Of a stretch of DNA of 58,798 nucleotides, positions 5,967 through 50,764 are shown one piece after another; the stretch's first letter is position 1; each line of letters begins with the position of its first letter. A model generated the notes under the pieces. It was not told the DNA's origin. It was given only the letters and a program-made list of their open reading frames with translations, and made no database searches. Origin of the DNA: a virus. The position numbers and the translations under genes were made by a program. The DNA lies in IMG/VR virus record IMGVR_UViG_3300006854_000006, positions 1 through 58,798 of that record; one strand, 5' to 3'.

Positions 5967-6793
5967 GACTCATCCGTGTGTTCCCGCGAAAAACCAAAGC
6001 CACGCCGGATGATCATCTCGCCTATGTGGGCCCGCCGGATCTCTTCGCCGAAGCCGATGAAGTCCATATCTCCGTCGCCTTCACTTACGACAAGCCCGAA
6101 GCCGAGCGCCTGGCCGAGCAATGGAAACACGTCGCGCGGGTGAAAGTCGGAGGCGTCGCGTATGGAGATCCCGGCCTTGATTTCGAACCTGGCAAATACA
6201 TCAAACGCGGTTACGTCCTGACCTCGCGCGGCTGTCCGCGGCGCTGCTGGTTTTGCAGCGTGTGGAAACGCGACCCGGTGCCGCGGTTGCTCGACATCCA
6301 CGACGGGTGGAACATTCTCGACGATAACCTGCTGGCGTGTCCCGAGGCGCATGTTCGTGCTGTCTTTCAAATGCTCTCACGGCAGCGGCGGCGCGTGGAA
6401 TTCACTGGCGGCCTCGAGGCGCTCTCGCTTCAGCACTATCACGTCGAGCTGCTCGCGAATTTGAAGCCGCGTCCGAACATGTTCTTCGCCTACGATCCGG
6501 GCGATGCGTTCGAGACGCTGGCGCTCGCCGCGCGGCGACTCCTCGCCGCCGGATTTACGTCCCGGTCGCATCGGCTCCGCTGTTATGTCCTGATCGGCTA
6601 TCCGCATGACACCTTCGATAAGGCCGAGACGCGCCTGCGGGACATCCTAAGAATCGGATTCACGCCGATGGCGATGCTGTGGCAGCCGGAAACGCCGTCG
6701 GCGATGAAGTGGAAACCCGCAGTTGAGTGGAGGGCGTTTCAACGCCGCTGGGTACGCCCGGCCATCATTCACAGCCAGGAGGTTGTCGCGTGA
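5963..6793 (+). CDS. Radical-SAM-like protein (276 aa)
   Basis: ATG 5963. Carries SRGCPRRCWFC (Cys 91, 95, 98), the CX3CX2C signature of a radical-SAM [4Fe-4S] cluster, followed by a TGGLEAL stretch and a TIM-barrel-like alternation. The first 85 residues resemble the cobalamin-binding-like domain of B12 radical-SAM enzymes but lack an obvious DxHxxG cofactor motif. The substrate is unknown. It is coupled by 4-nt overlaps to the ASCH gene and to a 47-residue partner. Related phage proteins often lie near DNA modification genes, so base or tRNA modification is a reasonable guess only. Confidence 0.8.
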   Translation: MRLIRVFPRKTKATPDDHLAYVGPPDLFAEADEVHISVAFTYDKPEAERLAEQWKHVARVKVGGVAYGDPGLDFEPGKYIKRGYVLTSRGCPRRCWFCSVWKRDPVPRLLDIHDGWNILDDNLLACPEAHVRAVFQMLSRQRRRVEFTGGLEALSLQHYHVELLANLKPRPNMFFAYDPGDAFETLALAARRLLAAGFTSRSHRLRCYVLIGYPHDTFDKAETRLRDILRIGFTPMAMLWQPETPSAMKWKPAVEWRAFQRRWVRPAIIHSQEVVA

Positions 6794-12438: not shown

Positions 12439-13491
12439 ATGGGCGAGACTTCGATCGAGTGGACGAATCGGACCTGGAATCCTGTCACCGGCTGCACGAA
12501 GGTAAGTCCCGGCTGCAAGTTCTGCTATGCCGAACGGGTGTTCCCGCGGGCGTATTCCGGGATGTGTGAGTGTGGTGACAGAATTGAAGCGCATGACCAT
12601 AACGATCCCTTCAGGCCAGGCACGCCGACCGCCTGTCTGAATGAGGACTGTAAATGCGTACTGTACCGCCAGCGTGTCTTCACCGAAGTTCTTACGCATC
12701 CGGACCGCCTAGACCAACCCCTGCACTGGCGCAAGCCGCAGCGGATCTTCGTCAACTCAATGTCGGATCTCTTTCACGAAGATGTGTCGGATGAATTCAT
12801 CGACAAGGTGTTCGCCGTGATGGGCCTGGCTCCGCAACATACTTTCCAGATCCTCACCAAGCGGCCCGAGCGGATGCGGGAATACATGAACGGCGACTAT
12901 CTTGACCGGGCATGGAAGCAGGCTCCAGATCTCGCCGGTCCGGATGCGCCATTTATCGATTGGCGCGATCCGTTGTGGCATCGAATGTACGACAACGTCT
13001 GGCTGGGCGTGTCCGCCGAAAACCAGCAGTATGCCGACGAACGGATTCCGCTCCTCTTGCAGACACCGGCCGCGGTGCGGTTTGTGAGCTATGAACCGGC
13101 GCTGGGGCCAGTCCTATTCCGTCGCCATATTGATGTGACACGAAGCGGCGTCATTGAGGGCCAGATTCTCGTGGATCACATATCCCGACTCGACTGGATC
13201 ATTGTCGGCGGCGAAAGCGGGCCCGGCGCTCGGCCGATGCATCCCGACTGGGCGCGCACCGTTCGGGATCAGTGCGAAGAAGCTGGAGTGGCGTTTTTCT
13301 TCAAGCAATGGGGCGAATGGTTCCCGCGGGATCAGTGGGAAGGCAATCCAAATCTAATTTTGCCGGATGACGAAGACTGCGTTGAAGGTCCGCGGCTCAG
13401 ACTAATGGGACCGCTTGCTTTCCATCGCGTCGGCAAGAAAGCTTCCGGCGCATTGCTCGACGGCGAATTGTGCAGGGAATTTCCGAAGTGA
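12439..13491 (+). CDS. Phage Gp37/Gp68-family (DUF5131) radical-SAM-like protein (350 aa)
   Basis: Starts MGETSIEWTNRTWNPVTGC. Cys 19, 26 and 29 form the CX6CX2C site of this family, which is held to be radical-SAM related. Conserved core segments NSMSDLFHE, QILTKRP, LGVSAENQ, RFVSYEPALG, VGGESG and FFKQWG are all present. Unlike typical members, about 45 residues with extra Cys (43, 45, 66, 71, 73) are inserted right after the CFCYAE motif, looking like an added zinc ribbon. The substrate is unknown; partners seen elsewhere (three-Cys-motif proteins) are not present here. Confidence 0.9.
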   Translation: MGETSIEWTNRTWNPVTGCTKVSPGCKFCYAERVFPRAYSGMCECGDRIEAHDHNDPFRPGTPTACLNEDCKCVLYRQRVFTEVLTHPDRLDQPLHWRKPQRIFVNSMSDLFHEDVSDEFIDKVFAVMGLAPQHTFQILTKRPERMREYMNGDYLDRAWKQAPDLAGPDAPFIDWRDPLWHRMYDNVWLGVSAENQQYADERIPLLLQTPAAVRFVSYEPALGPVLFRRHIDVTRSGVIEGQILVDHISRLDWIIVGGESGPGARPMHPDWARTVRDQCEEAGVAFFFKQWGEWFPRDQWEGNPNLILPDDEDCVEGPRLRLMGPLAFHRVGKKASGALLDGELCREFPK

Positions 13492-25724: not shown

Positions 25725-26447
25725 TTAGTTCACCGCCTCAACTATTCCGCAATTAGGCAGAGCACCTAAAGGCATCACGCGCAATAACTCACCGGTGTGG
25801 GGATTCCGCCATTCAGTTCGATAGCGCTTGTTGCTGTTGCAGGAGAAGCACGCAGGCAGGATGTTCTCGATGAAATTGGAGCCGCCGCGCTCAAGGGGTA
25901 TTACATGGTCGACAGTGAGCCGCTTGGAAGGCTTCAGGCAGTAAGCGCAGTGATAATCAAAGATCCAGAGTAGGAGGTTCCATTCTCCAGGCGTGAACAC
26001 TCCAGGACTCCCCGACTTGGTCGCCCGAGTTTTGTGCCCCCACTGCCTTCGCAGCCCATGCGCTTTTTCTCGGTCGTAATATTCCTGAATTTTGGCTTGG
26101 TTACTGGCTCTCCACTTTGCCTGACGTTGTTTAAACCATTCCGGATTTCTGGCTCTCCAAATGGGAGCGTATTCTCCGCTCCGCTTATTTCTGGCCGCAA
26201 TCCTGCACTTCTCGCAGCGTTTCCGCTGTGCATGCCGAAGGACTGGTCCGATGCCGCAGTCAATGCACGCCACAAGTTTCGGCCGTTTCGCTTTTTCCTC
26301 TCGACGCTTGTCGTCATATTTCTGAGTCGCCGCACGATGCGACAACCGCCTGACTTGAGGACGGCATTCCGCGCAATACCGATGGTTCCCTCTGGATCTA
26401 ACGACTTCGAAAGCGCCGCCACATTCCTTACAGAGTTTGTTACTCAT
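25725..26447 (-). CDS. HNH endonuclease with N-terminal zinc fingers (240 aa)
   Basis: Residues 1-85 contain zinc pairs (CKECGG, YCAECRP, CIDCG, CEKCR). The HNH core is CAYCLKPSKRLTVDHVIPLERGGSN, followed by ACFSCNSNK, with HV.P and the final N/H ligands intact. It sits between the tape measure and gp10-like genes and overlaps the latter by 8 nt. A homing endonuclease insertion in the tail operon is the simplest reading. Confidence 0.9.
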   Translation of the reverse strand: MSNKLCKECGGAFEVVRSRGNHRYCAECRPQVRRLSHRAATQKYDDKRREEKAKRPKLVACIDCGIGPVLRHAQRKRCEKCRIAARNKRSGEYAPIWRARNPEWFKQRQAKWRASNQAKIQEYYDREKAHGLRRQWGHKTRATKSGSPGVFTPGEWNLLLWIFDYHCAYCLKPSKRLTVDHVIPLERGGSNFIENILPACFSCNSNKRYRTEWRNPHTGELLRVMPLGALPNCGIVEAVN

Positions 26448-27868: not shown

Positions 27869-28297
27869 TTAAACCGGTCCCGTGATCGCACCCGTCAGCT
27901 TCAGGGTGAACGAGGCGTGCACAACTTCGTTCGGCGCGATCGGCCCGGCACGCCAGCCCTTGACAATGCCGGAGAACGAGAAGGTCAAGCTCCCGCCGCC
28001 GGAAGGCAGTGTCAGCTTGAAGTTCTTTGCCGTTCCGGCCACCGTGGCGGCGATCAGTGCGGCATGCGTGGTATCGGTCGGCTTGTAGTTCACGACGACC
28101 GGCACTTCAATCCCGTCCGGCAAACCGCCGATGTATTCCTTGGCGGTCGATTGCAGGTGCGTCGCTTCGATGAGATCGTTGTCCTGCCCGAGCTCGCCGA
28201 AGGACACGACTTCATAAACAGTCGAGAAGACTTCCGGCGATGCGCCATCGCCGATTTTGAATTGGGACAGGCTCCCCTTGAATGCAGTCGTGGTCAT
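27869..28297 (-). CDS. Major tail tube protein (142 aa)
   Basis: ATG 28297 after AGGAG. The form FKGSLSQFKIGDG...EVVSFGELGQDNDLIEATHLQSTAKEYI...LPDGIEVPVVVNY is that of lambda gpV-like tube subunits, with the usual terminal beta sandwich. Size is right. Placed directly after the head-closure gene and before the chaperones. Confidence 0.85.
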   Translation of the reverse strand: MTTTAFKGSLSQFKIGDGASPEVFSTVYEVVSFGELGQDNDLIEATHLQSTAKEYIGGLPDGIEVPVVVNYKPTDTTHAALIAATVAGTAKNFKLTLPSGGGSLTFSFSGIVKGWRAGPIAPNEVVHASFTLKLTGAITGPV

Positions 28298-28316: not shown

Positions 28317-28688
28317 TCAGGCTTCGGGTGGTTCGACAATGGGCACGCCTTCCATAAATTCCCGCTCCGTCGATTCGAGATGCGTGACTTCGATCATGTT
28401 CGTCAGATCACAGGTGATGGTCAGCATCGTCCGTTTCCGATCGTGGACAGCGCTCGCGATGTACCAGAGAGCTCCGTCCCAGATAATGCGATGCGACAGC
28501 GCATTGATTTCGGTACCATCGCCTGTCTTGCGGTAGCGGATGATGAACTGCGCCGCCGTCTCGCTGAGACGTTCGGCTTCGGCCGAAATCGGTCCGCCGA
28601 AATCGGCTGTCCAGCTTTCCGGCGTCACGCCGGCCGCGGGAATGCGCTTCTCGAAAGTCACGTAGTCGGACAATCGACCGGCTCTCAC
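28317..28688 (-). CDS. Head-closure (gp16/head-tail adaptor) protein (123 aa)
   Basis: GTG 28688 with a GTGA overlap to the upstream glycosyltransferase. AGRLSDYVTFEKRIPAAG, then ADFGGPISAEAERLSE and YRKTGDGTEINALSHRIIWDGALWYI match the SPP1 gp16-type fold that plugs the portal. It is separated from its expected partner, the connector at 36725, by the 8-kb glycan cassette. Confidence 0.85.
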   Translation of the reverse strand: MRAGRLSDYVTFEKRIPAAGVTPESWTADFGGPISAEAERLSETAAQFIIRYRKTGDGTEINALSHRIIWDGALWYIASAVHDRKRTMLTITCDLTNMIEVTHLESTEREFMEGVPIVEPPEA

Positions 28689-29341
28689 CGAAACCCAGAT
28701 GGGACCGCATCCCTCAAGACCGGCCGGTATTGCAGATTGTTATCGAACCGTTTCACGCTCGTGTTCTGGTCATGGATCCGAGCCCACATCATCGCGCCGG
28801 CTGGAACGCTGATCAGTTCGCCGGCTTGCCGCGCGTCCTTCACGAATTCGTTGTCCTCGCCGACGTTCGGATGCTCCGGGCCGGATCGGAAATAGTGATC
28901 TTTCCAGAACGACCGGCGATAACAGAGTGAGGTGCCCAGGGCATAACTGGAATCGCCGACATACTGGATCCATTGTCCGGACGGTTCGATTTTGAAGAGC
29001 ATCGAGTGATAGCCCGTCACCGCTTTACCGGAGACTTCGAGGCGCTCGACCTGGTCGGCCATACGTTCCGGCGAAGACCAGTCGTCACTATCGAAGTGCA
29101 TGATGATGTCGCCGCTACTCAATTCGATCGCCCTGTTGCGCTTGCATGGGATCGGCTTCGAAGATTCCCAGAAATATCGGACATTGGAATACCGCCGCGG
29201 CTCCGGGAAAGAGCGCTCCTCATCGTCATCCAGGATGATCAGTTCCTTCTCCGGATACGTCTGCGCGAGGAAGCATTCGAGCGCCTGGTGCGCCCACGCC
29301 TGCCGCCCGCGCGTCGGCATAATCGCGGACACGAGAATCAC
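28685..29341 (-). CDS. GT2-type glycosyltransferase (218 aa)
   Basis: The GTG at 29341 overlaps the previous stop (GTGA), giving MILVSAIMPTRGRQ. Standard GT-A features: PTRGR, LIILDDDEE, KRNRAIELSSGDIIMHFDSDDW (DxD-like metal site near residue 95), GTSLCYRRSFW and the EDNEFVKDA acceptor-side acid. It transfers a sugar from a nucleotide donor. The acceptor is unknown. Confidence 0.9.
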   Translation of the reverse strand: MILVSAIMPTRGRQAWAHQALECFLAQTYPEKELIILDDDEERSFPEPRRYSNVRYFWESSKPIPCKRNRAIELSSGDIIMHFDSDDWSSPERMADQVERLEVSGKAVTGYHSMLFKIEPSGQWIQYVGDSSYALGTSLCYRRSFWKDHYFRSGPEHPNVGEDNEFVKDARQAGELISVPAGAMMWARIHDQNTSVKRFDNNLQYRPVLRDAVPSGFR

Positions 29342-29979
29342 GCCGCGATCGGCCTCAGCGACCAATCGACGGCAATGCCGAGCTGGTCACATAAACGCTT
29401 GGCATCCGGGTTCCAGTATCCCCGATCGATGCCGCTCACCAGATACTCCAACGGCCAGGGCTGGGCCTCGCGCTTGAAAGAGAGCACCGGCACCGGCAGC
29501 GTGTCGCTGAAGGGCGTCCCGCGATTCTCGAAGTCGCCGGCTTCGCCCGTCGTTGTGTTCAGGCAGTAGCGGGCGATCTCGGCCAGATAGTCCGGTTGCC
29601 AGATGGCGACCTGACAGGAGATACGAGCGGCGGTCCCGCGCGGGATTCGACCGAAGTGAGGATCGCCGAAATCTTCAACGGCTCCCGGGCACGGATAGAG
29701 CCGCACACATCCGGCGCCTCGGGATTCGAGCAGCTCCCAGCCGCGCGCCACGAGATCGGATTGCACGGGCGCGGTCAAAAAGAAATCCTCCTGAAACACC
29801 ATAAGCGGCTCGTCGCTCTCGAGAGCCGAACGCAGGAGCACCCCGCACCACGGCTCACCGGCCCGGTCACTGTGAAACGTGATCGGATACGGGCAGTCAG
29901 GCCAGAAATGCTTCACGAGCGCAAGGAACGGATCCCAGGCATCCCGGTAGGCCGCGCAGGTGATGACGGCTACGCGCAC
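29338..29979 (-). CDS. Glycosyltransferase-like protein (213 aa)
   Basis: GTG 29979. It begins MRVAVITCAAYRDAWDPFLALVKHFWP, like phage and cyanobacterial proteins grouped loosely with glycosyltransferases, and has EDFFLTAPV near residue 65 in the position of a DxD site. The classical nucleotide-binding motif is weak, so the catalytic role is inferred mainly from the neighbours. Confidence 0.6.
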   Translation of the reverse strand: MRVAVITCAAYRDAWDPFLALVKHFWPDCPYPITFHSDRAGEPWCGVLLRSALESDEPLMVFQEDFFLTAPVQSDLVARGWELLESRGAGCVRLYPCPGAVEDFGDPHFGRIPRGTAARISCQVAIWQPDYLAEIARYCLNTTTGEAGDFENRGTPFSDTLPVPVLSFKREAQPWPLEYLVSGIDRGYWNPDAKRLCDQLGIAVDWSLRPIAA

Positions 29980-30887
29980 GAGACGAGTCCCATCGTCTGC
30001 AATTGTTTTTCGACGGCATAGGCCATCGTCTTCGGCCAGTCCGCGGCGTTCAGCCAGCGCAACCAGGATGCCCGCGCCTCGAGGCCCATCGTGATCAATT
30101 CCACGTCGCTCGTGTTCCGGAGAAACTCGGCGATGATCTCGCCCGCCGATCCCGCCTGTTGCCGTTCGATGTGCAGCATGAAGGCGTCGTAAGGGATTTC
30201 CTCGTCGAAAGGAAAGACGACATCCGAAGCAATCAGTATGGGGACGCGTCCGGCGGACATCGCTTCAAAGAACCGGTAAGGGAAAACCCCGGGTATCGAT
30301 TCCGGGCAGAGGCAGACGCGCGATTCGCGCATGCTCCGACGGAACTCGGCACGCCGGCGAACGCCTTCCGGTTCGTGATAGATGTAGCCGGTAAAATCCT
30401 CGTAGCGCGCCATGTCGCAGCGCAGGCCTAGATGGTCGAGGCACGATTGCGACGAGATCCGGCGAGTGTCGGTCGAGAGCCATGCGTGGAAACTGACATC
30501 GTAGGTGAAGCCCGCTTCCGGCAGATCCACGCATTCGGCGAAATCCTCCACGGGCCAGGCCACGTTGATGGAGTGTGGATCGTCATCCCACATCCAGGTC
30601 CGGAGATCGCATCGAATGAAGAGGCACGGCAGTCCGATCGCCCGAGTGAAGTTATCGCTGACATCGAGAAAGGCATGGCGCGCTTCATTGCCGGCCCAAT
30701 GAGGCAGGTGCGACAACCGCTCTTTCCGAAGCACGCCATTCTCAAGAAAGCCACTCAATGATCCGGGGCAGACGAAAACATCGGCAACATTCGGGTCTTC
30801 TGTTACTGGGATGCCGTCCAGGCGCAGTTCGCCCGGCGGCCACCGATCGAGTCCCGCCTCAGCGGGTTTGTAGATGTACTGATGCAA
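29970..30887 (-). CDS. Exostosin-like (GT47-type) glycosyltransferase (305 aa)
   Basis: TTG 30887, overlapping the upstream gene by 29 nt. The N terminus MHQYIYKPAEAG and the C-terminal half (SRVCLCPESIPGVFPYRFFEAMSAGRVPILIASDVVFPF) show the exostosin signature (RFFEAMxAGxIPVI). Inverting GT-B type enzymes of this family use UDP-sugars. It is unusual in phages. Confidence 0.85.
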   Translation of the reverse strand: MHQYIYKPAEAGLDRWPPGELRLDGIPVTEDPNVADVFVCPGSLSGFLENGVLRKERLSHLPHWAGNEARHAFLDVSDNFTRAIGLPCLFIRCDLRTWMWDDDPHSINVAWPVEDFAECVDLPEAGFTYDVSFHAWLSTDTRRISSQSCLDHLGLRCDMARYEDFTGYIYHEPEGVRRRAEFRRSMRESRVCLCPESIPGVFPYRFFEAMSAGRVPILIASDVVFPFDEEIPYDAFMLHIERQQAGSAGEIIAEFLRNTSDVELITMGLEARASWLRWLNAADWPKTMAYAVEKQLQTMGLVSCA

Positions 30888-31695
30888 TGCGATCTTGGGC
30901 TTGTTTGTAGGCCAGCAGATAGGGTTCGTAAATAGACTCTCGATCTTCCGGTCGCAGCGCGTAGTGGGTCAGGCGTCCTTGCTGGGCATCGAACTCGTGG
31001 GCGTGATAGCAAATCAGGGACGCGCCATCGAGTCGCGGCCCGGCGGTGACGCGCCAGTTCGCAATCGACCATGGCCCCGCATTCACGCCGATGTTTTCGA
31101 TGACACAGCATTCCGGACCGTAAGCCTCCGGCCAGACGTCGAGATATTTTTGATCGCCGCAGCCATCGGTTGCGGAGCATTTGGTCCGGCACTGCGCCGC
31201 CCACGTCGCGACGCACCGGTGGCCGACTCGCGTGTTTTTGAAATGCACGAAACCGACGTTGAAGAGGCCGTTCACCTCAAGATATTTTTTCGAGGGGATC
31301 AGCCGATGCGGTGTGATCGCGATCGAGCGCATGCCGATTTCCGCAAAGACAGGGGCCGGATCCGCAAAGAAAAACGTGTCCGCGTCGAGATACGTCACTT
31401 CGAAAAGGCCGCTCACGAAGAGAAACTCGCAAAGCTGGGAGGCCAGCATCCAGCACCACTCTTGATGCGTGCGGGCCTGGTGGATCGCCTCGAGTCCGCA
31501 GTCGGCTTCGAACGCCTCGCCAGCGATCATCGTCACTTCCGGCAGCGATAGACCACTGAGTACATCCTGCGTTGGATCATCCAGAGCGAGGATGTGCAAC
31601 ATGAAGGGCTCGCTGGAATGCCGCTTCAACGAATCGTAGAGGGCGAGGCCTTGCGGCAGATATTTCTGATCGAAGAGCGTGCAGTAGTGCCTCAT
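30859..31695 (-). CDS. GT8-like glycosyltransferase (278 aa)
   Basis: ATG 31695 (ATGA overlap). MRHYCTLFDQKYLPQGLALYDSL is the opening of GT8-type enzymes; LDADTFFFADP near residue 100 is the DxD metal site; NGLFNVGFVHFKN and the later NIGVNAGPWSIANWRV are the usual acceptor-side segments. Retaining transferases of this kind use UDP-Glc or UDP-Gal; donor not determined. Confidence 0.85.
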   Translation of the reverse strand: MRHYCTLFDQKYLPQGLALYDSLKRHSSEPFMLHILALDDPTQDVLSGLSLPEVTMIAGEAFEADCGLEAIHQARTHQEWCWMLASQLCEFLFVSGLFEVTYLDADTFFFADPAPVFAEIGMRSIAITPHRLIPSKKYLEVNGLFNVGFVHFKNTRVGHRCVATWAAQCRTKCSATDGCGDQKYLDVWPEAYGPECCVIENIGVNAGPWSIANWRVTAGPRLDGASLICYHAHEFDAQQGRLTHYALRPEDRESIYEPYLLAYKQAQDRIASVHLQTR

Positions 31696-32441
31696 ACGCT
31701 TTTGATGCTGGCGTACGGTTCGATTTCCGTTTTCTTCAACAGGTAATCGCGATGGCCCGATTCGGTCCGCGGATCCCAGAAGACGTTACAGTCGTAGACC
31801 GGTTCCAGGCCGAAACTCCGGAAGAGTCCGAGCAATTCCGCCTCGTTAAAATGGATCTCGAGGCATTCCACGCCATAGGCCTCTTTCACAAAAAACGTGG
31901 TCGGCTTAGCGCGGAGAATGGGACTCCGATGAAACAACACGTAACGCCGGGCGACGCGGGCGGCTTCGGCAATCAGGCGGGGATAGTCCCGCACGTGCAT
32001 GATGCAGGCGCCGTGCAGCACGATGTCGAACGCGTCCGTCAGATAGGGCAGGGCGCGCGCCTCCCCGATATCGAAAACGATGCCCGGATAAAGTTGTTCG
32101 GCGAACGCTTGGAACGCTGCGGAATAATCGAATCCCGTATAGCCCACGTTGAAGCCGGCGATTGCCAGGACTTCCCGGTAATAACCTGCGGAAGCTCCCA
32201 CGTCGAGCAATGTCGGTTGCTCGGCCAACAGTTCGATGGGAAGCCGGCGCATGCACTCCAGAAATGCGGCAAAGGGCGCACAGGCCTCCCCTAACCGCAG
32301 GAGGCGTAATTCGTTCCGGACCGCGGATTCATATTGACGGCGAGGGATCTCCGGACACTGCCAGGCTGCGGCGCAACGCTCGGCCACCTCGGCCACTTCA
32401 TCCGGAGACAGTTCGCGATAGTTGGTGGAAATAGCGTTCAT
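31692..32441 (-). CDS. SAM-dependent methyltransferase (249 aa)
   Basis: The true start is ATG 32441 (ATGA overlap with the hidden membrane protein); a longer in-frame extension runs through that gene. The class I SAM fold is visible: LLDVGASAGYY (motif I), GFDYSAAF, IVFDIGEARALPYLTDAFDIVLH and the post-motif YPRLIAEAARVARRYVLFH. It probably methylates a sugar or polypeptide in the glycan cassette. Confidence 0.85.
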   Translation of the reverse strand: MNAISTNYRELSPDEVAEVAERCAAAWQCPEIPRRQYESAVRNELRLLRLGEACAPFAAFLECMRRLPIELLAEQPTLLDVGASAGYYREVLAIAGFNVGYTGFDYSAAFQAFAEQLYPGIVFDIGEARALPYLTDAFDIVLHGACIMHVRDYPRLIAEAARVARRYVLFHRSPILRAKPTTFFVKEAYGVECLEIHFNEAELLGLFRSFGLEPVYDCNVFWDPRTESGHRDYLLKKTEIEPYASIKSV

Positions 32442-32587
32442 CGTTTCAGTGGTGGCGGAGGCGGCGGTAAAGGCTTCATCTTTGGCATTGGGTGCGGATT
32501 TTTGACTTGCACGCTGCGAGATTCGACCTTTCCGCGGCATAAAACGGCGATGGCAAACAGTAAGACTACGAGGACTAAGTCGGACAC
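32438..32587 (-). CDS. Hidden small membrane protein with Pro-rich tail (49 aa)
   Basis: GTG 32587, starting 13 nt inside the end of the glycosyltransferase at 32575, and ending in an ATGA overlap with the methyltransferase. The N-terminal stretch MSDLVLVVLLFAIAVL is a short transmembrane segment; the tail carries KMKPLPPPPPPLKR. It lies in another frame from the long but non-native N terminus usually attributed to the methyltransferase. Perhaps a membrane adaptor for the glycan enzymes. Too short for ordinary gene callers. Confidence 0.7.
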   Translation of the reverse strand: MSDLVLVVLLFAIAVLCRGKVESRSVQVKNPHPMPKMKPLPPPPPPLKR

Positions 32588-33642
32588 AGCGACCCCTTCA
32601 ACGTCTCACTCACCGTCGTCATGCGCTGCGCGTACGTATGATCGCGCAACGTTCGCCGCTGGCCGTTCGCCGCAATGAACCGCCGTTCGTCTTCGTTCTT
32701 CAGGTAGTACCTGATCTCTGCGACGGCCTCTTGAGGCGAGTAGTACGTCACGACTTCATCGTGACCAAAGAATTGTTGAAGGTTCGCCGCCTCCTCGGTC
32801 AACAGCAGCGCGCCACAACCCGTCGCTTCAAACAGTCGCATATTATTCGCGTAACCCTGCGCGATTTCCCCATGCCGGTTGAGGCAGATTTTGGACTGCA
32901 GCAGAATTTCGTACATGTCCAGGCCCCAGGCTTCGCCCTGGTACTTCTCGCGCAAGGCACTGTCGGGCGGCAATGCCTCGGCACCATAACCCCACCATTT
33001 GAAGGTCGGAATATGGCAGGCGACGGCTTCCAGAACTTCCATGCCATACCGCCAATGTGAAGGATTGCCGACGCCGCCGATGAAAACGACATCGTGGATG
33101 CGTCCGAAGTCCATCGCGATGGATTCCGTCGGCAGAACTGGAAACATATCCGGATGGCAGCGGTCCGCGACACCCGGCTCAAACGCTAACGGATTGTAGA
33201 CGGGTCTGACCCCGAGTTTCTGGATGCGTTCCACATAGTGCGGGAAACTCGTAAAGATCACATCGTACTTTCGGATCTTCTCGTCGCCCGGCCACGGACA
33301 CGAACATTGACCGGCGAGGAGCCTGTCTCGCTTGTCCACGTCGAGGCTCAGGTCCTGCATGAAGATGACGTCCGGGTCGTGGAACGCGATTTGCGCTTCG
33401 AGTCGGTCACCGCCGTACCAATGTGATTCCTGCGCCCAGAGTTCCTGCAAGTCGGCGTGATTGGCAATCACGTCATGCGCGAACCACCCGCACGCCCGAA
33501 GGTTGCGGCTGTACGCATCGAAAGTTCCGAAGCAGCGGTCGAGTAGTCGCCGTAGTTCGATGCCGTAGTTCTGCGATTCAAGCGGGACGGACTTCAGGAA
33601 GTCGGGATAGTAGGTGTCGACGATCAGGATGCTCGGAACCAT
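32575..33642 (-). CDS. GT1/CgeB-like glycosyltransferase (355 aa)
   Basis: ATG 33642. Opens VPSILIVDTYYPDFLKSVP. The C-terminal half has SKICLNRHGEIAQGYANNMRLFEATGCGALLLTEEAANLQQFF, the donor-binding region of GT-B enzymes of the CgeB type (NxRxFEaxGCGal). Then AVAEIRYYLKNEDERRFIAANGQRR. It transfers a sugar to an unknown acceptor. First gene of the cassette's left half, downstream of the plus-strand HNH insertion. Confidence 0.9.
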   Translation of the reverse strand: MVPSILIVDTYYPDFLKSVPLESQNYGIELRRLLDRCFGTFDAYSRNLRACGWFAHDVIANHADLQELWAQESHWYGGDRLEAQIAFHDPDVIFMQDLSLDVDKRDRLLAGQCSCPWPGDEKIRKYDVIFTSFPHYVERIQKLGVRPVYNPLAFEPGVADRCHPDMFPVLPTESIAMDFGRIHDVVFIGGVGNPSHWRYGMEVLEAVACHIPTFKWWGYGAEALPPDSALREKYQGEAWGLDMYEILLQSKICLNRHGEIAQGYANNMRLFEATGCGALLLTEEAANLQQFFGHDEVVTYYSPQEAVAEIRYYLKNEDERRFIAANGQRRTLRDHTYAQRMTTVSETLKGSLCPT

Positions 33643-33706
33643 GTCACAGTTTCATGTCAAGCAAATAAAGTTATAAGTCCAGATAAATCCATAGCAACAG
33701 CATCGG

Positions 33707-33736
33707 CCTATGTCCACCTATGTCATCCTATGTCTA
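33707..33736. repeat. Three tandem 10-bp repeats CCTATGTCNN
   Basis: CCTATGTC followed by CA, AT and TA, three copies in phase at 33707, 33717 and 33727. The 10-bp spacing puts each copy on the same DNA face. They sit in the 180-bp gap between divergent genes (glycosyltransferase, minus; HNH, plus), so they may bind a regulator. An iteron or a homing site remnant is also possible. A perfect ACCCTG/CAGGGT hairpin follows at 33792-33809, directly before the plus-strand gene. Confidence 0.6.
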
Positions 33737-33822
33737 CTCACTGGTTTAGCTGGCTAAGCTTCATTGCCGCTCTTAAGTCACGCCATCGCCGACCCTGATA
33801 AACCAGGGTGTATAACTTGCTC

Positions 33823-34146
33823 ATGAAAATAAAGCAGGAACAAGATTTCGCGACTTACTTTCAGCGACTCCTAAAGAATCCGGCCCATCGACGCGCTTAT
33901 TATGCGAGCCGGATTTGGCAGATGCGCAAGCAAGCTCTGGCGCTGCGGTCAAAGGGCCTTTGCGAGAATTGCGGGAATGGTAAGTTTGAAATCGCCCACC
34001 ATTTGACTTATGCCCACTTCGGCGCGGAGTACCTTTCGGAGCTACAGGCAATCTGCAGGCCCTGCCACGACTATCTTCACGGCCGATCCGATTACAATCC
34101 GGCGTGTGATACCGCGAGGCCGAAACAACTAAGTCTTTTCTCGTGA
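33823..34146 (+). CDS. Plus-strand HNH endonuclease (107 aa)
   Basis: The chosen start is ATG 33823 (a GTG at 33808 is in frame but lies in the hairpin). GLCENCGNGKFEIAHHLTYAHFG...LQAICRPCHDYLHGR carries both zinc CxxC pairs and the H-H-N/H catalytic loop. Reads against the late genes and sits in the middle of the glycan cassette. Probably a homing or mobility endonuclease, which may have helped to build the insertion. Confidence 0.85.
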   Translation: MKIKQEQDFATYFQRLLKNPAHRRAYYASRIWQMRKQALALRSKGLCENCGNGKFEIAHHLTYAHFGAEYLSELQAICRPCHDYLHGRSDYNPACDTARPKQLSLFS

Positions 34147-34205
34147 GAACCGTCGCCCGATCACCGTCACTTTCAATTCGCCCCTGCCCGGCGGGCCGGC
34201 CAGCA

Positions 34206-34442
34206 CTATTTCTTCCGAACCGAGAAACTGAGCTGAAAATCGCCGGACGGATTCTGTCCGCTGTAGTCATGATGCCCGCTGGCATTGGCCGTCACGGCCG
34301 TTCCCTCCGGCATGGTTCCGACGGCCGCGCGAAGGGCTTCCCGGCAGGCCTCGAAATGCTGCGTGTCCCCCGAACCGGTCGCCGCATCCAACTGCTTCAG
34401 GGCTTCCTCTTTCGTACCGCTGGCTGAAATGGAAAAAGACAT
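34206..34442 (-). CDS. Conserved small phage protein (78 aa)
   Basis: ATG 34442. MSFSISASGTKEEALKQLDAA...GTAVTANASGHHDYSGQNPSGDFQLSFSVRK is a short beta-hairpin protein frequently found near head or tail genes in other phages. The function is unknown. It is a true phage gene inside the glycan cassette, suggesting that the cassette arose by several insertions and not as one block. Confidence 0.7.
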   Translation of the reverse strand: MSFSISASGTKEEALKQLDAATGSGDTQHFEACREALRAAVGTMPEGTAVTANASGHHDYSGQNPSGDFQLSFSVRKK

Positions 34443-34458
34443 TGGGCTGACCTCCCTC

Positions 34459-35082
34459 TTATCCGATCACGATCAATTGCAGTTCGTCCGTCCAATGGAA
34501 AATCACATCGAGATCCTTCTCGTGTGTTTGGAACCATCCCCGCAACGCCCGTTCCGCCGTGCATTCGTGATGCGTGCCGGTGCGGTACAGGAAACACGTG
34601 GCCTTTTGCACCAGGTTGTCTTTCAACTTCGACAGGTAGCCGTGATTGTGCCGCACGAAGATCGGCGGTTTGCCGTCAACGGGATTCGGCAGCACGAGCC
34701 ATCGGTGCTCCTCCTCTTCGAAGTTGAAGATCGCTTCCTTGATCGCCGACGGCATCACGATCGTCCCGCGCTTCGCAATCCGGCTGAGCGTCGCCGCCGC
34801 TTTCTGCGGATTCTCGACATGCTCGAGCACGTGCGAGCACCAGACGTAATCGAAGGCCTGATCCATAATCGCCGGCACGCCATCTTCGATGTTGCCCAGC
34901 ATCGTCTCTTTGCCTTCGAGGTCGAGCGGTTCGAGCCTTTCCGGATCCTGGTCGAGATACACATCGGCGCGCGCTAAGGGATACGCGCCTGGGCCCACAT
35001 CGAGCACTTTCCACTGATCGTGGATGAACGGCAGCTCCACGTAATCGCGTGGTCCCCAGGTGGCGAAATTGTCGACGATCAC
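34459..35082 (-). CDS. SAM-dependent methyltransferase (207 aa)
   Basis: GTG 35082 (GTGA overlap). WKVLDVGPGAYPLARADVYLD is motif I, ending in an acid; DYVWCSHVLEHVENPQKAAATLSR is the post-motif helix typical of methyltransferase_11 enzymes. The C-terminal part (FVRHNHGYLSKLKDNLV) is unusual. Likely acts on glycan or lipid-linked sugar. Confidence 0.85.
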   Translation of the reverse strand: MIVDNFATWGPRDYVELPFIHDQWKVLDVGPGAYPLARADVYLDQDPERLEPLDLEGKETMLGNIEDGVPAIMDQAFDYVWCSHVLEHVENPQKAAATLSRIAKRGTIVMPSAIKEAIFNFEEEEHRWLVLPNPVDGKPPIFVRHNHGYLSKLKDNLVQKATCFLYRTGTHHECTAERALRGWFQTHEKDLDVIFHWTDELQLIVIG

Positions 35083-35666
35083 TGCTTGTGAAATCTCAAA
35101 CAGAATGCCGGGTAGAAGTGGATATTCGGCTCTTCGCCCCCACCACCGAAACCATAACGTTCCACGAGCGCGTGGAGCCGCTCCCGGGAATACGACATCA
35201 TGTGATATCCGTAATCGTTCCGCCGCGGGCCCAGCAGATGGCGCACATAAAACTCGTCGCCGGTCGCTTTGTAGAGCCGCAAGGTTTCTTCATGGTCGGG
35301 GACGTCGAGCCGCAGGATTCCAGTTGGCCGGAGAACACGATGGCATTCGGCCAGAGCTCGCCGCGCTTCGGTGATGGAGAGATGCTCGAACGTGTGCCGC
35401 GCGAGAATCTCTTCGACTTCAAACGACGGCGCCGGCAGATGCTCGAACGACCCAAAACGGTCGCAGACGTAATCCTGCGCCAGCGGTCCCGCCCGGAGCG
35501 TGTCGAGTGTCTTGTCCGCATGCCGGGCATAATACCGATCCTCCGTTGTCTTCCACCGCTCGACGAGATCCGGCCGGTCGCACGCCCGGAAGGTGTTCGC
35601 GTTCTCCAGATCCACATTCAGCCAACCGTCGAGATAGACCGCACCGCAGCCGATATGGAGTTTCAC
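35079..35666 (-). CDS. SAM-dependent methyltransferase (195 aa)
   Basis: GTG 35666 (GTGA overlap). MKLHIGCGAVYLDGWLNVD is the classic short N terminus with motif I (HIGCG), followed by ILARHTFEHLSITEARRALAECHRVLRPTGILRLDVPD. Small SAM enzymes of this form occur in glycan biosynthesis clusters next to glycosyltransferases, which is also its context here. Confidence 0.9.
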   Translation of the reverse strand: MKLHIGCGAVYLDGWLNVDLENANTFRACDRPDLVERWKTTEDRYYARHADKTLDTLRAGPLAQDYVCDRFGSFEHLPAPSFEVEEILARHTFEHLSITEARRALAECHRVLRPTGILRLDVPDHEETLRLYKATGDEFYVRHLLGPRRNDYGYHMMSYSRERLHALVERYGFGGGGEEPNIHFYPAFCLRFHKQ

Positions 35667-36373
35667 GCGGCGACCATCCGATAGCGCTCGTAGACCGCGC
35701 GCATCGCCGGCAGATGCGGTCCGTACTTCGCCCGCAAGAGATCCGCCTGTTGCTGCCGGAAGTCGTAGTGATTGTTCTCGCGCCGCGATTCGTCCTGCGT
35801 CGAGTGATGAAGGACTCGCGCCTCGGGAATCCCCGCGATGCCCTTGCCCACCAGGAGCACGCGATAGGTCAGGGAATTGTCGTTCCCGTACATCGTCAGC
35901 TCGTCATCGAACCAGCCGACCTGGTTTCCGAGCTCGCGCGACACGACGCCGAAGTTCGCATACAGCATGCCCCAGTGGCAATGATTGACGTGGTAGCTCT
36001 CACCCGTCGCCCGATCCGCGTAGTAGAGCGCACCGAGGCCGATCTCGGAATGGTCCTGCATGAAGCGGATCGCCGCCGTCGCGTAGCCCGATTCGACTTC
36101 GCAGTCGTCGTTCAACCAGATCACCCAATCGCCGGACGTTTCGCGAAACGCGCGGTTGTACCCTACCGTACAGCCCAATCGCGGCCGCTCCGGCAGCACG
36201 CGGATCTTCGGCCAGGTCTCCGCCGTCGCCACCGTTTCATGCTCGATCGGGGAGTCCGACGCATCCGAGACAATCAGTTCCCAGTCCATCGGCGTGTGCC
36301 GCTCGATCGAGTCCACGAGCCGGCGGAAATCGAAAGGCCGGTTGCGGGTTCCCGTGACGAGACTGAGTTTCAA
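35663..36373 (-). CDS. GT2-type glycosyltransferase (236 aa)
   Basis: The true start is TTG 36373 (TTGA overlap with the adaptor gene); a longer frame has an unnatural Arg-rich N terminus. LSLVTGTRNRPFDFRRLVDSIERHTPMDWELIVSDASD, GCTVGYNRAFRETSGDWVIWLNDDCEVESGY (DxD-like NDD) and the later GWFDDELTMYGNDNSLTYRVLL are GT-A features. First gene of the cassette in transcription order. Confidence 0.9.
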   Translation of the reverse strand: MKLSLVTGTRNRPFDFRRLVDSIERHTPMDWELIVSDASDSPIEHETVATAETWPKIRVLPERPRLGCTVGYNRAFRETSGDWVIWLNDDCEVESGYATAAIRFMQDHSEIGLGALYYADRATGESYHVNHCHWGMLYANFGVVSRELGNQVGWFDDELTMYGNDNSLTYRVLLVGKGIAGIPEARVLHHSTQDESRRENNHYDFRQQQADLLRAKYGPHLPAMRAVYERYRMVAA

Positions 36374-36732
36374 TTCACCCTCAATTCGAGGTCGCGGATC
36401 AGCGTTTGCGGACCCGTCGCATCCGTCCCCGCCGTCACCCGGAGCGCGTACGTGGTTCCCGCAACGCCGCCGGCGACCGTGAATTCGACCGCTCGCGCTT
36501 TCGATACCGGAAACCCATCGAGGATCCATTCGTCCGACGTGATGCCGACATTGGAGATCGTCAGATCGCTGGTGCCGACTTCGAGGACGGTCGGCGTACC
36601 GGTCAGCAATTCGTCGCTTCCGGTCAAGGGAGCGGTCATCGGCGCGCAACCCTGTATGGATGAGACGGTATGCAAGCTGTCGCTGAAATCGACAGCGAAG
36701 CGTCGGACTTCCCCGGCACGTTTGTTAAGCAA
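36370..36732 (-). CDS. Head-tail region beta-sandwich protein (fibre-tail adaptor-like, 120 aa)
   Basis: TTG 36732, overlapping the upstream stop by 8 nt. MLNKRAGEVRRFAVDFS then alternating strands ending LRVTAGTDATGPQTLIRDLELRVN. Proteins of this form and place follow the gp6-like connector in many phages and are thought to join fibres or decorations to the neck. Its stop overlaps the first glycosyltransferase. Confidence 0.65.
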   Translation of the reverse strand: MLNKRAGEVRRFAVDFSDSLHTVSSIQGCAPMTAPLTGSDELLTGTPTVLEVGTSDLTISNVGITSDEWILDGFPVSKARAVEFTVAGGVAGTTYALRVTAGTDATGPQTLIRDLELRVN

Positions 36733-37036
36733 GCGTCGGATCTCGTGGGATAAGGGCTTTCACGCTATCGGACAGCACGTTCGCAATACTCGCTTCGCGA
36801 TTTTCATACAGCTCACCGAGCACCAGTAGCGTCGCGGCTTCAATGTCGGCCGGCACGGTGATGGTCGCCGGCGAACTCGAGACGCCATACCATTCATCGG
36901 GAACAGCCGTTTTCTTGTAGTACTGCATGACGATCGCCGAGGCCTGCGCGATCTTCATCGCAATATCAGCGTCGCGCTCGGTGCCTTCGATGCGGAGTTG
37001 CAACTTCGCTTTCGCGAGCGAAACGAGATCGATCAA
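36725..37036 (-). CDS. gp6-like head-tail connector (103 aa)
   Basis: TTG 37036 (TTGA overlap). MIDLVSLAKAKLQLRIEGTERDADIAMKIAQASAIVMQYYKK is the helix pair of HK97 gp6-type connectors that bind beneath the portal. Normal length. Next in transcription order after the collagen-like gene. Confidence 0.85.
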   Translation of the reverse strand: MIDLVSLAKAKLQLRIEGTERDADIAMKIAQASAIVMQYYKKTAVPDEWYGVSSSPATITVPADIEAATLLVLGELYENREASIANVLSDSVKALIPRDPTLA

Positions 37037-38154
37037 TGCTTGCTCCCATCAAATCCCATCTGGGTGAGGTCTCGACCGTCACGCCCGTCTTTGCCTTTCG
37101 GACCTTCCGCGCCGACGGTGCCGTCTTTCCCCGCGCGGCCTTCCTTCACCATCAACTTCCAATCCGATCCCGTTCCCGGTTTCACTCTCGTCGACTCCGC
37201 ATTGCAGTGCCAAGCCGACCCGGCCCAAGTGACGACATCGCCACGGGCGTATTCGGTGCCCTCTTTGAAGATTTCGCGATAGATCATCGCCGGCATTTGA
37301 AAGCAGTAGGTTTTGGTCGATACCATCTCGCTCGTCTTCCAGATCTTTAAGACGAAGGAACGGTGATCCTCGTTCTGTTCGACTTCGATCTCGCGAATAC
37401 CATCGACGACCACGTCCCATCCCGCAATGATTCCGTTTTCATCCGCGGGAGTCGTCGTGGTCAGTGCCCGCAGTAAGCCGCCTTGATGTTTGGCAAAGGT
37501 CCCGCGCGGATAACTTTTCGCCGGATCGATCGCCGGCAGAATATCAATTTCGAGCGAATCCCGGCCGCGCTCGCCGTCGCGCCCATCTTTGCCATTAATG
37601 CCGTCGCGCCCATCGCGGCCGTCTTTACCGTCACGGCCCGGTTCTCCCTTTTCTCCCGTAATCGACAGTCCGGGCTCGCCGTGTGGGCCGCGTTCCCCGG
37701 GTTCTCCTTTTTCGCCACGCTGTCCTGTGACGCCGGGTTCGCCACGGTCGCCTTTCTCGCCCCGTTCCCCAGGCAGACCCGTGTCGCCTCGCTCTCCACG
37801 CTCGCCCGGCGCCCCTTGATCACCGCGTTCGCCCGGGTCCCCGCGCGGCCCGGACGGGCCAGGTTCACCTTTCGGTCCAGGCTCACCGCGTTCCCCCCTC
37901 TCGCCGCGCGGGCCGGGATCGCCTTTCTCGCCCTTCTCTCCAACGCTCGACGGCCCTTGTTCACCGGGCGCGCCGGGATCGCCCTTATCCCCTTTTTCGC
38001 CTTTTTCCCCGCGAGGTCCTGCCGGAATACTATTCAGCCGCCGATCGAGATCATCCAAACGCGTCGAAACCGCCACGAGCGCCGCCGAGACGTATTCGCG
38101 GACCAATCGACCGATCGACTTCGCGAGAATCGACAGGTCACTGCGTTCCATCAT
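37033..38154 (-). CDS. Collagen-like protein with carbohydrate-binding-like repeats (373 aa)
   Basis: ATG 38154 (ATGA overlap with portal). Residues about 45-200 are near-perfect Gly-X-Y triplets rich in charged GEKGEKGDKGDPG-type units, with a second shorter Gly-X-Y run at about 340-362. Between are two YxxGxxVxxxGxxW-type segments (SYPRGTFAKHQGG; YARGDVVTWAGSAWHC) resembling CBM5/12-like modules. It should trimerise into a rod and may decorate the capsid or act as a fibre. Lys, Thr and Ser positions could carry glycans. Its place between portal and connector is unusual. Confidence 0.85.
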   Translation of the reverse strand: MMERSDLSILAKSIGRLVREYVSAALVAVSTRLDDLDRRLNSIPAGPRGEKGEKGDKGDPGAPGEQGPSSVGEKGEKGDPGPRGERGERGEPGPKGEPGPSGPRGDPGERGDQGAPGERGERGDTGLPGERGEKGDRGEPGVTGQRGEKGEPGERGPHGEPGLSITGEKGEPGRDGKDGRDGRDGINGKDGRDGERGRDSLEIDILPAIDPAKSYPRGTFAKHQGGLLRALTTTTPADENGIIAGWDVVVDGIREIEVEQNEDHRSFVLKIWKTSEMVSTKTYCFQMPAMIYREIFKEGTEYARGDVVTWAGSAWHCNAESTRVKPGTGSDWKLMVKEGRAGKDGTVGAEGPKGKDGRDGRDLTQMGFDGSKH

Positions 38155-48894: not shown

Positions 48895-48976
48895 GCCGGA
48901 GCGTTCCTTCATGACAGATCATGAAATTGGATGGATCACGTTCACCCCATCACCGGCGGCACCAACCGTCGGCCAC

Positions 48977-49017
48977 AAAAAACGGGCGACGGGAAAGGTC
49001 CATGAACCCCGTCGCCC
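48977..49017 (-). terminator. Strong intrinsic terminator for leftward transcription
   Basis: Leftward, GGGCGACGGG (49017-49008) pairs with CCCGTCGCCC (48993-48984), a perfect 10-bp stem with a 14-nt loop, followed after one base by TTTTTT (48982-48977). It sits between integrase and replication genes and would stop leftward transcripts from the excisionase/repressor side. The rest of the 48913-49185 gap shows no gene. Confidence 0.9.
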
Positions 49018-49185
49018 AGGGACAGAGAGAAACACTCGCCCGACTGAAAAACCTGACTTACAATGCGGGCGGCCCGGATGACCATCGCACCGGTCATCCA
49101 GGCCTCGCCAAAACCATTCACGGGTAAGCGTGGACGGCCTGACTCTCTTTGATTTCGTGCCGGCGCTCACCCCATCGGAGGATCG

Positions 49186-50376
49186 ATGCCGCGGAAGCGC
49201 ACGGGGAATATTCAACAACGCACCACAACGAGTTTTCGGATCCGCTATGTCGACGTCGACGGCATCCGACAGCAGGAAACGATTACTGGAACACGCGAGG
49301 ATGCGGAACGCGAACTGGCGATCCGCCTGGGGGAACTCGCGAAGGGAATTCCGGTATCGTCGAAACCGAACACGGTCCTCTTTGGCGAGCTCGCCAACGA
49401 TGTACTGGTCGACTATGAAGTGAACGGATACAGCTCGCTGGACGACATCGAGACTCGTTTTCGGCTGCACATCGTTCCAGTGTTCGGCAACCGCAAGGCG
49501 GCGCAGATCACGACGGCCCAGATCAAACACTACATCGTGCTGCGGCAGAAGGAAGACGCCGAGAACGGCACGATCAATCGGGAACTGGAGGCGATCCGCC
49601 ATACGTTTAATCTGGCCATCCAGGGCCGCAAGTTGCTCTTCGCGCCATACGTGCCGAAACTCCGGGAGGACAACGTCCGTGAAGGCTTTGTCACGCGCGC
49701 GGAAATGGAGCGGTTGTCCGTGTTTCTCGCTCCCAAACCACGCGCCTTTGTATGGTTCCTTTTTCTGACCGGCTGGCGGGTCGGCGAAAGCCGAAAGCTG
49801 GAATGGCCCGCGGTGGATTTCGATAACAACGAAATCCGCTTGCATGCGGGCCGAACCAAAAACCGGGATGGCCGGGTGTTCCCGATGAGTGATGAGTTGC
49901 GCGTGTTGCTGCTCGAGTTGGCTCGATTGGCGACGCCCGAATCCGGCGAGGGATCCGGAGTTCGCACGCTGCCCTATGTGCCGCTGACCGGCCGCGTCTT
50001 CACGATCGGCGAGTTTCGGAAGAGCTGGGCCCGGGCCTGCTACAACGCCGGCCTCCCCTGCACGATCCACTACAAACGGGATGCCGCCGGCAATCTGGTC
50101 ATCGGAAGTCAGCGGGGAAGTAAAGGCCTGCCGGTGATCGAACGGATTGAGGCGAAGCGGACGCCTCACGATCTGCGGCGCAGTTTCGCGCGCGAGATGG
50201 ACCGTCAAGGTGTCCGGCAAAGCGCGATCATGAAGCTCGCGGGGTGGAAAACCGATAGTGTTTTCCGGCGCTACAACATCGTCAGCGAGGTCGACTTGAG
50301 AGACGCGATTGATACGATGGATGCGGAGCGCAAAAGGGCCACGAAAAGGGCCAAAGACGGAGGAGAGGCTGATTAG
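49186..50376 (+). CDS. int: Tyrosine integrase (396 aa)
   Basis: ATG 49186 with GGAGG upstream. An N-terminal SAM-like core-binding region (LFGELANDVLVDYEVNGYSSLDDIETRFRLHI), then the catalytic domain: R198 (GWRVGE), K225 (RTKNRDGR), H328/R331 (TPHDLRRSF), W354 and Y363 (RRYNIVSE). Cuts and joins DNA at att sites. attP lies 31 bp after its stop. A 608-residue antisense frame is a shadow. Confidence 0.97.
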   Translation: MPRKRTGNIQQRTTTSFRIRYVDVDGIRQQETITGTREDAERELAIRLGELAKGIPVSSKPNTVLFGELANDVLVDYEVNGYSSLDDIETRFRLHIVPVFGNRKAAQITTAQIKHYIVLRQKEDAENGTINRELEAIRHTFNLAIQGRKLLFAPYVPKLREDNVREGFVTRAEMERLSVFLAPKPRAFVWFLFLTGWRVGESRKLEWPAVDFDNNEIRLHAGRTKNRDGRVFPMSDELRVLLLELARLATPESGEGSGVRTLPYVPLTGRVFTIGEFRKSWARACYNAGLPCTIHYKRDAAGNLVIGSQRGSKGLPVIERIEAKRTPHDLRRSFAREMDRQGVRQSAIMKLAGWKTDSVFRRYNIVSEVDLRDAIDTMDAERKRATKRAKDGGEAD

Positions 50377-50406
50377 ACTCGCATAACTTGCTGATTGGAC
50401 AAGTCC

Positions 50407-50448
50407 GGCCCCGTAGCTCAGAAGGATAGAGCAGCGGTTTCCTAAACC
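50407..50448 (+). other. attP core: 5' half of a tRNA-Arg(CCT) gene
   Basis: GGCCCCG-TA-GCTC...GAGC-A-GCGGT-TTCCTAA-ACC matches the 5' half of tRNA-Arg with anticodon CCT. The 3' strand of the anticodon stem then fails (ACCTT instead of ACCGC) and the sequence diverges. Such a half tRNA beside int marks the crossover core. Here the phage carries the 5' half, so recombination would rebuild the host tRNA from the phage side. The excisionase gene ends 4 bp later. Confidence 0.85.
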
Positions 50449-50452
50449 TTCG

Positions 50453-50764
50453 TCATTTCTTTGCAAACCGTTCTCTCCATTGATGCGGCAGGCCGGTTGA
50501 GGTTTTTGGGCCCCGTTGGATTTGGGCCAGTTTTGGCGACTCTCGTGGAGCAATAGGGCCCGATAAAGGGCCACGATTCTCGTCGTCCTGTACCGGCATC
50601 TTGGAGGCTTCGATGAATGCCTCCAGGTCTTCTTCCCGCACTTGAATCCGGCGCCGGCCGCCGAGACGGATCCCTTGCAACTGACCGGTGAGCACGAAGT
50701 CGCGCGCCGTCGAATAATCCACCCGAAGTCGTTTCGCCACTTCATTGAGAAAAAGAATCGCCAT
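50453..50764 (-). CDS. xis: Excisionase / MerR-like HTH (103 aa)
   Basis: ATG 50764. MAILFLNEVAKRLRVDYSTARDFVLTGQLQGIRLGGRRRIQVREEDLEAFIE is a winged MerR-type HTH of the excisionase kind. The C-terminal 45 residues are Pro-rich and unstructured. Reads away from the regulators toward attP, against int. Confidence 0.8.
   Translation of the reverse strand: MAILFLNEVAKRLRVDYSTARDFVLTGQLQGIRLGGRRRIQVREEDLEAFIEASKMPVQDDENRGPLSGPIAPRESPKLAQIQRGPKTSTGLPHQWRERFAKK

Follow-up and report, generated by a model that had tools for sequence, protein, structure and literature searches.

The window analysed here is the whole of virus record IMGVR_UViG_3300006854_000006 (58,798 nt), in which nine enzyme genes lie between the connector gene Ad1 and the head-closure gene Hc1. 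All nine are in the late orientation (minus strand); three encode methyltransferases and six encode known or probable glycosyltransferases (GTs). An earlier note on this DNA had named these genes, and the open reading frames (ORFs), coordinates, Pfam and PHROG matches agree with it on their order and orientation. The cassette and its flanking genes are given below in the late direction; here and throughout, L-numbers (e.g. L002) are labels of the phage loci or records compared with the window.

37033-38154 (-): collagen-like structural protein (phrog_1289 and collagen-like tail families), adjoining the connector
36725-37036 (-): Ad1, head-tail adaptor (gp6-like connector), the upstream border (phrog_40, E 5e-17)
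36370-36732 (-): small ORF (120 aa) after Ad1, with homologues in the nearest relatives only (L103-L105)
35663-36373 (-): GT2a, the first cassette enzyme (PF00535, Glycos_transf_2, 3e-15)
35079-35666 (-): MTa, S-adenosylmethionine (SAM)-dependent methyltransferase (PF08241, Methyltransf_11, 1e-7); relatives 57-71% identical
34459-35082 (-): MTb, SAM-dependent methyltransferase (PF08241, 7e-8)
34206-34442 (-): small ORF (78 aa) without a conserved counterpart in the relatives' cassettes
33808-34146 (+): HNH endonuclease inside the cassette (phrog_144, 4e-9, among other matches); absent from L002
32575-33642 (-): CgeB-like glycosyltransferase of GT-B type (PF13524, Glyco_trans_1_2, 9e-31); relatives 39-58% identical over the full length
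31692-32540 (-): MTc, the third methyltransferase (PF08241, 4e-11)
30859-31695 (-): GT8-like protein with a DXD motif (YLDAD) (PF03407, 1.7e-3, below the cut-off); relatives 33-53% identical
29970-30887 (-): GT47, exostosin-family glycosyltransferase (PF03016, Exostosin_GT47, 5e-11)
29338-29979 (-): GTx, a conserved protein without a family, presumed a glycosyltransferase solely from its context; relatives 22-55% identical
28685-29365 (-): GT2b, the last cassette enzyme (PF00535, 2e-14)
28317-28688 (-): Hc1, head closure, the downstream border (phrog_25, 5e-5)
27869-28297 (-): major tail protein (MTP; phrog_158, 4e-23)

The profile matches bear out the GT2, CgeB-like, exostosin and methyltransferase identities proposed in the earlier note, whereas its 'GT8' scores below threshold and its 'GT-like' protein, GTx, belongs to no family. 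The GT47 assignment is the clearest of the less common types: PF03016 scores 42.9 bits against a curated cut-off of 33.4, and the GT47 profile matches the structures of EXTL3 (6.6e-6), EXT1 and EXT2. Profile searches of the PDB with the CgeB-like, GT8-like and GTx proteins gave no match.

Exact 4-nt overlaps occur at five junctions (small ORF/GT2a, GT2a/MTa, MTa/MTb, MTc/GT8 and GT2b/Hc1), the GT2a gene starting with a TTG that overlaps the TGA stop of the preceding small ORF. The other cassette junctions are overlaps of 8-29 nt or gaps of 16 and 34 nt, plus a single gap of 563 nt, so that the description 'mostly 4-nt coupled' applies to those five junctions and not to the rest. The plus-strand HNH endonuclease, probably a mobile intruder, lies in this 563-nt gap, which separates the 78-aa ORF from the CgeB-like gene. 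The cassette overlaps its neighbours in the head-tail operon at both sides, and no promoter- or terminator-like sites were found above shuffled expectation between 28000 and 39600. Base composition is also matched, with a GC content of 0.596 and a third-position GC content (GC3) of 0.73 in the cassette, compared with 0.595 and 0.76 in the structural genes. This position in the operon points to late expression of the cassette.

Conservation of the cassette in other phage records

A search with the GT8-like protein found L002, which has homologues of eight of the nine window enzymes (42-68% identity), arranged in the same order and occupying the same slot. Between L002 and the window, the major capsid protein (MCP) is 47% and the MTP 36% identical, whilst Ad1, Hc1 and the tape measure protein (TMP) cannot be aligned. 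Because the enzymes are held at this level of identity whilst the virion proteins diverge, they are under constraint.

A GT2a profile built from four phages gave 17 phage loci with GT2a homologues (39-61% identity), which were compared using gene maps and tblastn. A core of GT2a, MTa, the CgeB-like protein, the GT8-like protein, GT47 and GTx is present in 11 records (the window, L002/L109, L107, L108, L110, L111, L112, L114, L115, L116 and L117), largely in order and mostly 33-70% identical to the window; GT47 was found in 11/11 records tested. The remaining GT2a loci have partial cassettes, truncated where the contig ends. L104 and L105 are apparently one phage sampled twice, as are L106 and L107; L114 and L115 are close to each other.

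The order in L107, L108 and L110 is GT2a, MTa, MTb, CgeB, MTc, GT8, GT47, GTx, GT2b. Changes elsewhere mainly concern the methyltransferases. L111 has no recognised MTb and carries a different methyltransferase instead; MTc is replaced in both L002 and L111 by an unrelated methyltransferase near the same place; and MTa and MTb are fused in one ORF of ~396-418 aa in L006, L103, L105, L108, L112, L114 and L115, which suggests that the two act together. The GTx counterparts of L114 and L115 are only 25% identical to that of the window. The most divergent carriers are L116 and L117, where MTa precedes GT2a and the homologues are 33-70% identical.

In the four carriers where both borders are visible (the window, L002, L107 and L111), the cassette lies between Ad1 and Hc1 in 4/4. 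L107 and L110 differ from the window in having an unrelated capsid protein and a portal of only 20-21% identity; the operon, or the module with it, therefore either moves between lineages or has outlived replacement of the head genes. Since other phage records repeat these enzymes in this order, the cassette is not a chance pattern of ORFs. We regard it as a real, defined and conserved phage-borne operon, with glycan assembly as the role predicted from its enzyme families. The earlier note had proposed a search of related phages for the same locus with variable enzyme content; the locus is there, and is more ordered than expected.

Part of the variation lies in genes for sugar nucleotides. The L002 cassette contains a dTDP-4-dehydrorhamnose 3,5-epimerase (RmlC, 7e-52) and a GDP-mannose 4,6-dehydratase (GMD, 8e-130), enzymes that act in 6-deoxyhexose synthesis. 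In L112 (2690-4247), L116 (1122-2526) and L117 (10758-12167), FdtA and a DegT-type aminotransferase lie between the first genes and CgeB. FdtA and DegT (FdtB-type) enzymes jointly make 3-amino-3,6-dideoxyhexoses, and a phage-made sugar of this type is predicted for these cassettes. A DegT gene lies close to the end of the cassette in L114 and L115, so that DegT is present in 5/11 and FdtA in 3/11 core-carrying records; L116 and L117 have an additional nucleoside diphosphate (NDP)-sugar epimerase several kb downstream. The window has no GMD, Epimerase, FdtA or DegT match, and its sugars would therefore come from the host. As the relatives have deoxysugar or amino-deoxysugar genes of their own, the sugars probably differ between phages. 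A constant core of GTs and methyltransferases, accompanied by donor genes that change, matches the requirements of a common glycan whose sugars vary.

Cultured phages gave little. A tblastn search of 50,697 records with five of the cassette genes, the remainder not being searched, found no match to the CgeB-like, MTa or GT8-like proteins, a weak partial match of GT47 to Synechococcus phage S-SKS1, and matches of GT2a to only two Enterococcus phage records (26% identity). The exostosin type, described earlier as rare in phages, does seem rare in cultured ones but recurs in environmental ones. A scan of viral contigs with MTb gave no match. Bacterial genomes were scanned with two short peptide patterns for each protein, giving no match to GT47 and one partial match to MTa (36%, Phytobacter); absence from bacteria is not firm, because each scan rests on two short motifs. 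We found no description of an operon of this kind in the open-access literature, which was the scope of the search (subscription papers lay outside it).

Inserts in the connector module and the wider phage

To place the cassette among related loci, a portal-profile scan of environmental phages was used to collect 80 related viral contigs, on which genes were called and the connector and tail genes labelled with iterated hidden Markov models (HMMs). The connector module was readable in 40 loci (L002 and L008, a cultured Rhizobium phage, among them). Inserts of at least 150 aa between the collagen-like gene and the tail were absent from 21/40 and present in 19/40; leaving out L002 and L008, which did not come from the portal scan, there were 20 loci without and 18 with inserts. 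The insert-free loci, such as that of Rhizobium phage RHph_X2_26, support the earlier statement that Ad1 and Hc1 are normally close neighbours.

Inserts are mostly methyltransferases, glycosyltransferases or radical-SAM enzymes; in three of the 19 filled loci (L032, L043 and L062) they were not identified as enzymes. Among the 71 insert ORFs, Methyltransf_23 was matched by 12 and Methyltransf_24 by 7, and the others include GT2, Glyco_trans_1_2, GT8, GT9, GT-D, FkbM, pyruvyl transferase, radical SAM and HNH endonucleases. The commonest connector insert is a phrog_4603 protein (annotated as sialyltransferase-like, with a weak PF01973, MptE-like, match), present in 10 related records (L015, L023, L038, L039, L063, L067, L075, L076, L080 and L084) and absent from the window, L002 and L009. 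Radical-SAM proteins, one of them with SPASM, also lie in the connector region (L004:6921-7802, L015:18346-19389 and L023:10662-11615); such inserts suggest other modifications of virion proteins.

The insert boundaries vary between related phages (collagen-Ad1, Ad1-Hc1, Hc1-Ne and Ne-MTP). This variety, the presence of HNH endonucleases and the probably temperate nature of the phage would fit a connector module that is a passive landing site for morons of unrelated function, lysogenic conversion included, in which case the location would mean little. We consider this quite unlikely. The content of the inserts is biased to GTs, methyltransferases and radical-SAM enzymes compared with 59 control ORFs from outside the slot in largely the same loci, which are mainly terminase small subunits, tail tube proteins and DNA methylases and include a GT-type match in 1/59. 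Methyltransf_23 was found in 12/71 insert ORFs and 2/59 control ORFs (Fisher p 0.02), a contrast that is indicative only, because structural ORFs were left out of the insert set and kept in the control set. Moreover, the composition and order of the window cassette are kept in 11 records, and no independent promoter was seen.

The rest of the window is that of a tailed phage, probably temperate since it encodes a tyrosine integrase (49186-50376, plus strand; PF00589, 4e-10, at 49699-50280). A long antisense ORF (48919-50745) with no family match overlaps the integrase gene. An exact 50-base direct terminal repeat (1-50 and 58749-58798) suggests that the record is a complete circular assembly. 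Other genes encode a C5 cytosine methylase, YqaJ and RecT recombination proteins, a portal and a terminase, and the prohead protease and MCP are one fused protein. The closest cultured capsid relatives are merely ~41% identical (Pseudomonas, enterobacterial and Rhizobium phages). A second HNH/endonuclease-VII-like gene (25725-26447, minus strand) lies between the tape measure and neck genes; the two such genes of the late region are possible free-standing homing endonucleases. Outside the late operon there are a DUF5131 protein (12439-13491, plus strand; 1e-96) and a weak radical-SAM match (5963-6793, plus strand).

Predicted glycan and candidate acceptors

We think it probable, with considerable room for doubt, that with this cassette the virus autonomously builds an O-methylated deoxysugar glycan and places it on virion proteins; the tail tube is a possible, putative substrate. 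A sugar chain on the particles is probable because the enzyme row recurs, in the same order, in at least 10 other environmental phage records. The cassette would be transcribed with the head and tail genes during late infection, and its soluble cytoplasmic glycosyltransferases would build a short oligosaccharide stepwise, directly on a virion protein while this is still cytoplasmic. Starting or extending the chain would probably fall to GT2a or GT2b; the CgeB-like, GT8-like, GT47 and GTx proteins would add further sugars; and the three methyltransferases would O-methylate the sugars or cap the chain. Activated sugars would be supplied by the host in the window phage, and made with their own GMD and RmlC or FdtA and DegT in relatives. 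The likeliest acceptor would be an abundant structural protein, possibly the MTP, with the capsid or the collagen-like protein as alternatives, and the likely benefits would be particle stability, masking from binding proteins, or adsorption.

Phage GTs often change the host surface, and surface polysaccharides typically involve GT2, GT1, GT8 and GT47 enzymes together with O-methylation and the synthesis of 6-deoxysugars. The enzymes might instead modify host surface glycans late in infection, resulting in receptor masking, superinfection exclusion or progeny that do not stick to debris. However, transmembrane segments are absent from all nine enzymes, the flippase GtrA (PF04138) is absent from the window and L002, and no lipid-carrier initiating transferase was seen among the window matches. 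Genes needed before lysis would also be oddly placed in a slot among the virion assembly genes of phages whose heads are unrelated, and we judge a host-surface target unlikely. The earlier note had argued against lysogenic conversion: the lack of GtrA and of transmembrane segments does make serotype conversion a poor fit, whereas the integrase indicates that the phage is probably temperate.

DNA is a further conceivable target, the GTs making hypermodified bases: phage GTs can glycosylate DNA (Pyle 2024, as cited in PMC12619734), and the window phage encodes a C5 cytosine methylase. Yet a thymidylate-synthase-like pyrimidine hydroxymethylase (PF00303) is absent from the window and L002, the genes are in a late position, and sugar-nucleotide and multiple methylation genes fit an oligosaccharide better. 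We give DNA modification hardly any credence. A cytoplasmic protein acceptor is thus favoured over lipopolysaccharide (LPS) or DNA, because transmembrane segments, GtrA and a hydroxymethylase are all missing.

Among virion proteins, it is the window MTP of which a relative was seen in each of the four carriers whose two borders are visible (36-42% identity), and this shared relative makes the tail tube the leading candidate substrate, if a weak one. For the window capsid, portal and collagen-like protein, the L107 counterparts are either unrelated or went undetected. Related tail proteins are also found in phages without the cassette. The collagen-like gene lies directly upstream of Ad1 in the window and in many relatives, as would be expected were the neighbouring collagen-like protein specifically the substrate; collagen-like genes are, however, equally present in insert-free loci (L008, L013 and L057), tblastn found none in the carriers L107 and L110, and GXT motifs are not enriched, nearly all loci having almost none. 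A dedicated collagen substrate is consequently very unlikely in our view.

Other results weigh against a virion glycan. The GT8-like protein falls short of family membership (PF03407, 18.8 bits against a cut-off of 22), as does its L002 relative (PF01501, 17.7 against 24.3; 2.7e-3), and GTx has no Pfam or PHROG match; AlphaFold models of GTx and the GT8-like protein, made from two-sequence alignments, were unusably poor (predicted local distance difference test (pLDDT) scores of 43 and 37, respectively). No acceptor motif was found, the collagen GXT content being low with or without the cassette, and S/T-rich C-terminal tails on the MTP and MCP showed no consistent shared pattern. In L116 and L117 (94-97 kb contigs) the cassette was not seen in the connector slot, and that of L117 follows tail-like genes. 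Soluble GTs could equally act on host glycans or small molecules, and a virion glycan in the cassette carriers is a prediction.

A broader possibility can be put forward tentatively, with slightly more doubt than confidence. The carriers may form a class of temperate environmental phages in which an ordered operon, open to exchange, specifies a complete O-methylated glycan of deoxysugar or amino-deoxysugar type on the tail tube or head; the sugar would be varied by swapping GMD/RmlC and FdtA/DegT modules whilst the core is kept, giving phage serotypes as in chloroviruses.

Comparison with known systems and implications

Gtr serotype-conversion clusters resemble the window in having phage-encoded GTs. 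They need the membrane flippase GtrA and lipid-linked donor enzymes and are expressed in lysogens; the window and L002 differ from them in lacking GtrA. Closer in location are the Pseudomonas phages D3, PAJU2 and Psp6, which have a phrog_4603-type gene, a gene for a ~276-aa protein and a methyltransferase gene in the head-tail region, at boundaries that differ in each phage. As in the window, the enzymes lie among capsid, connector and tail genes, but there are three genes and a different GT family (phrog_4603, 'alpha-2,3-sialyltransferase'), one that the window and L002 do not have.

In Mycobacterium phages, subunits of the capsid and tail tube bear glycans (Freeman 2023, cited in PMC12619734). 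Phage-encoded GTs are common to the window and to Che8 and its relatives (as described in PMC12619734 and PMC11256854); the virion-protein glycans present there are proposed here. The arrangement also differs, with about two GTs near the genome 3' end in mycobacteriophage Maravista (cluster F1) compared with an ordered nine-enzyme operon, methyltransferases included, inside the connector module of the window. In the tblastn search described above, no mycobacteriophage was matched by the CgeB-like, MTa, GT47 or GT8-like proteins; the Che8 and Corndog enzymes were not compared directly.

In chlorovirus PBCV-1, capsid glycans are made by mostly soluble virus GTs, including the exostosin-annotated A075L, with methyltransferase domains in A064R and A061L and a GMD, A118R, for 6-deoxysugars (PMC9614988). 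Of these features, the window has GTs without transmembrane segments and methyltransferases, and sugar-nucleotide enzymes are found in the cassette relatives and not in the window. PBCV-1 is a eukaryotic giant virus with scattered genes and an N-linked glycan on its major capsid protein, and the likeness is functional only.

Pending proof, the window cassette represents phage virion glycosylation in a new operon form, with a predicted glycan that parallels the chlorovirus machinery. Glycosylation of phage virions is known from few examples. The finding of one conserved operon, with many enzymes and linked to virion assembly in phages whose heads are unrelated, suggests that virus-autonomous glycan synthesis recurs as a strategy among phages, and gives a defined list of genomes to test together with a tractable cultured counterpart, Pseudomonas phage D3, albeit with other enzymes. 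Such a strategy would bear on antibody recognition, particle stability and phage-host binding.

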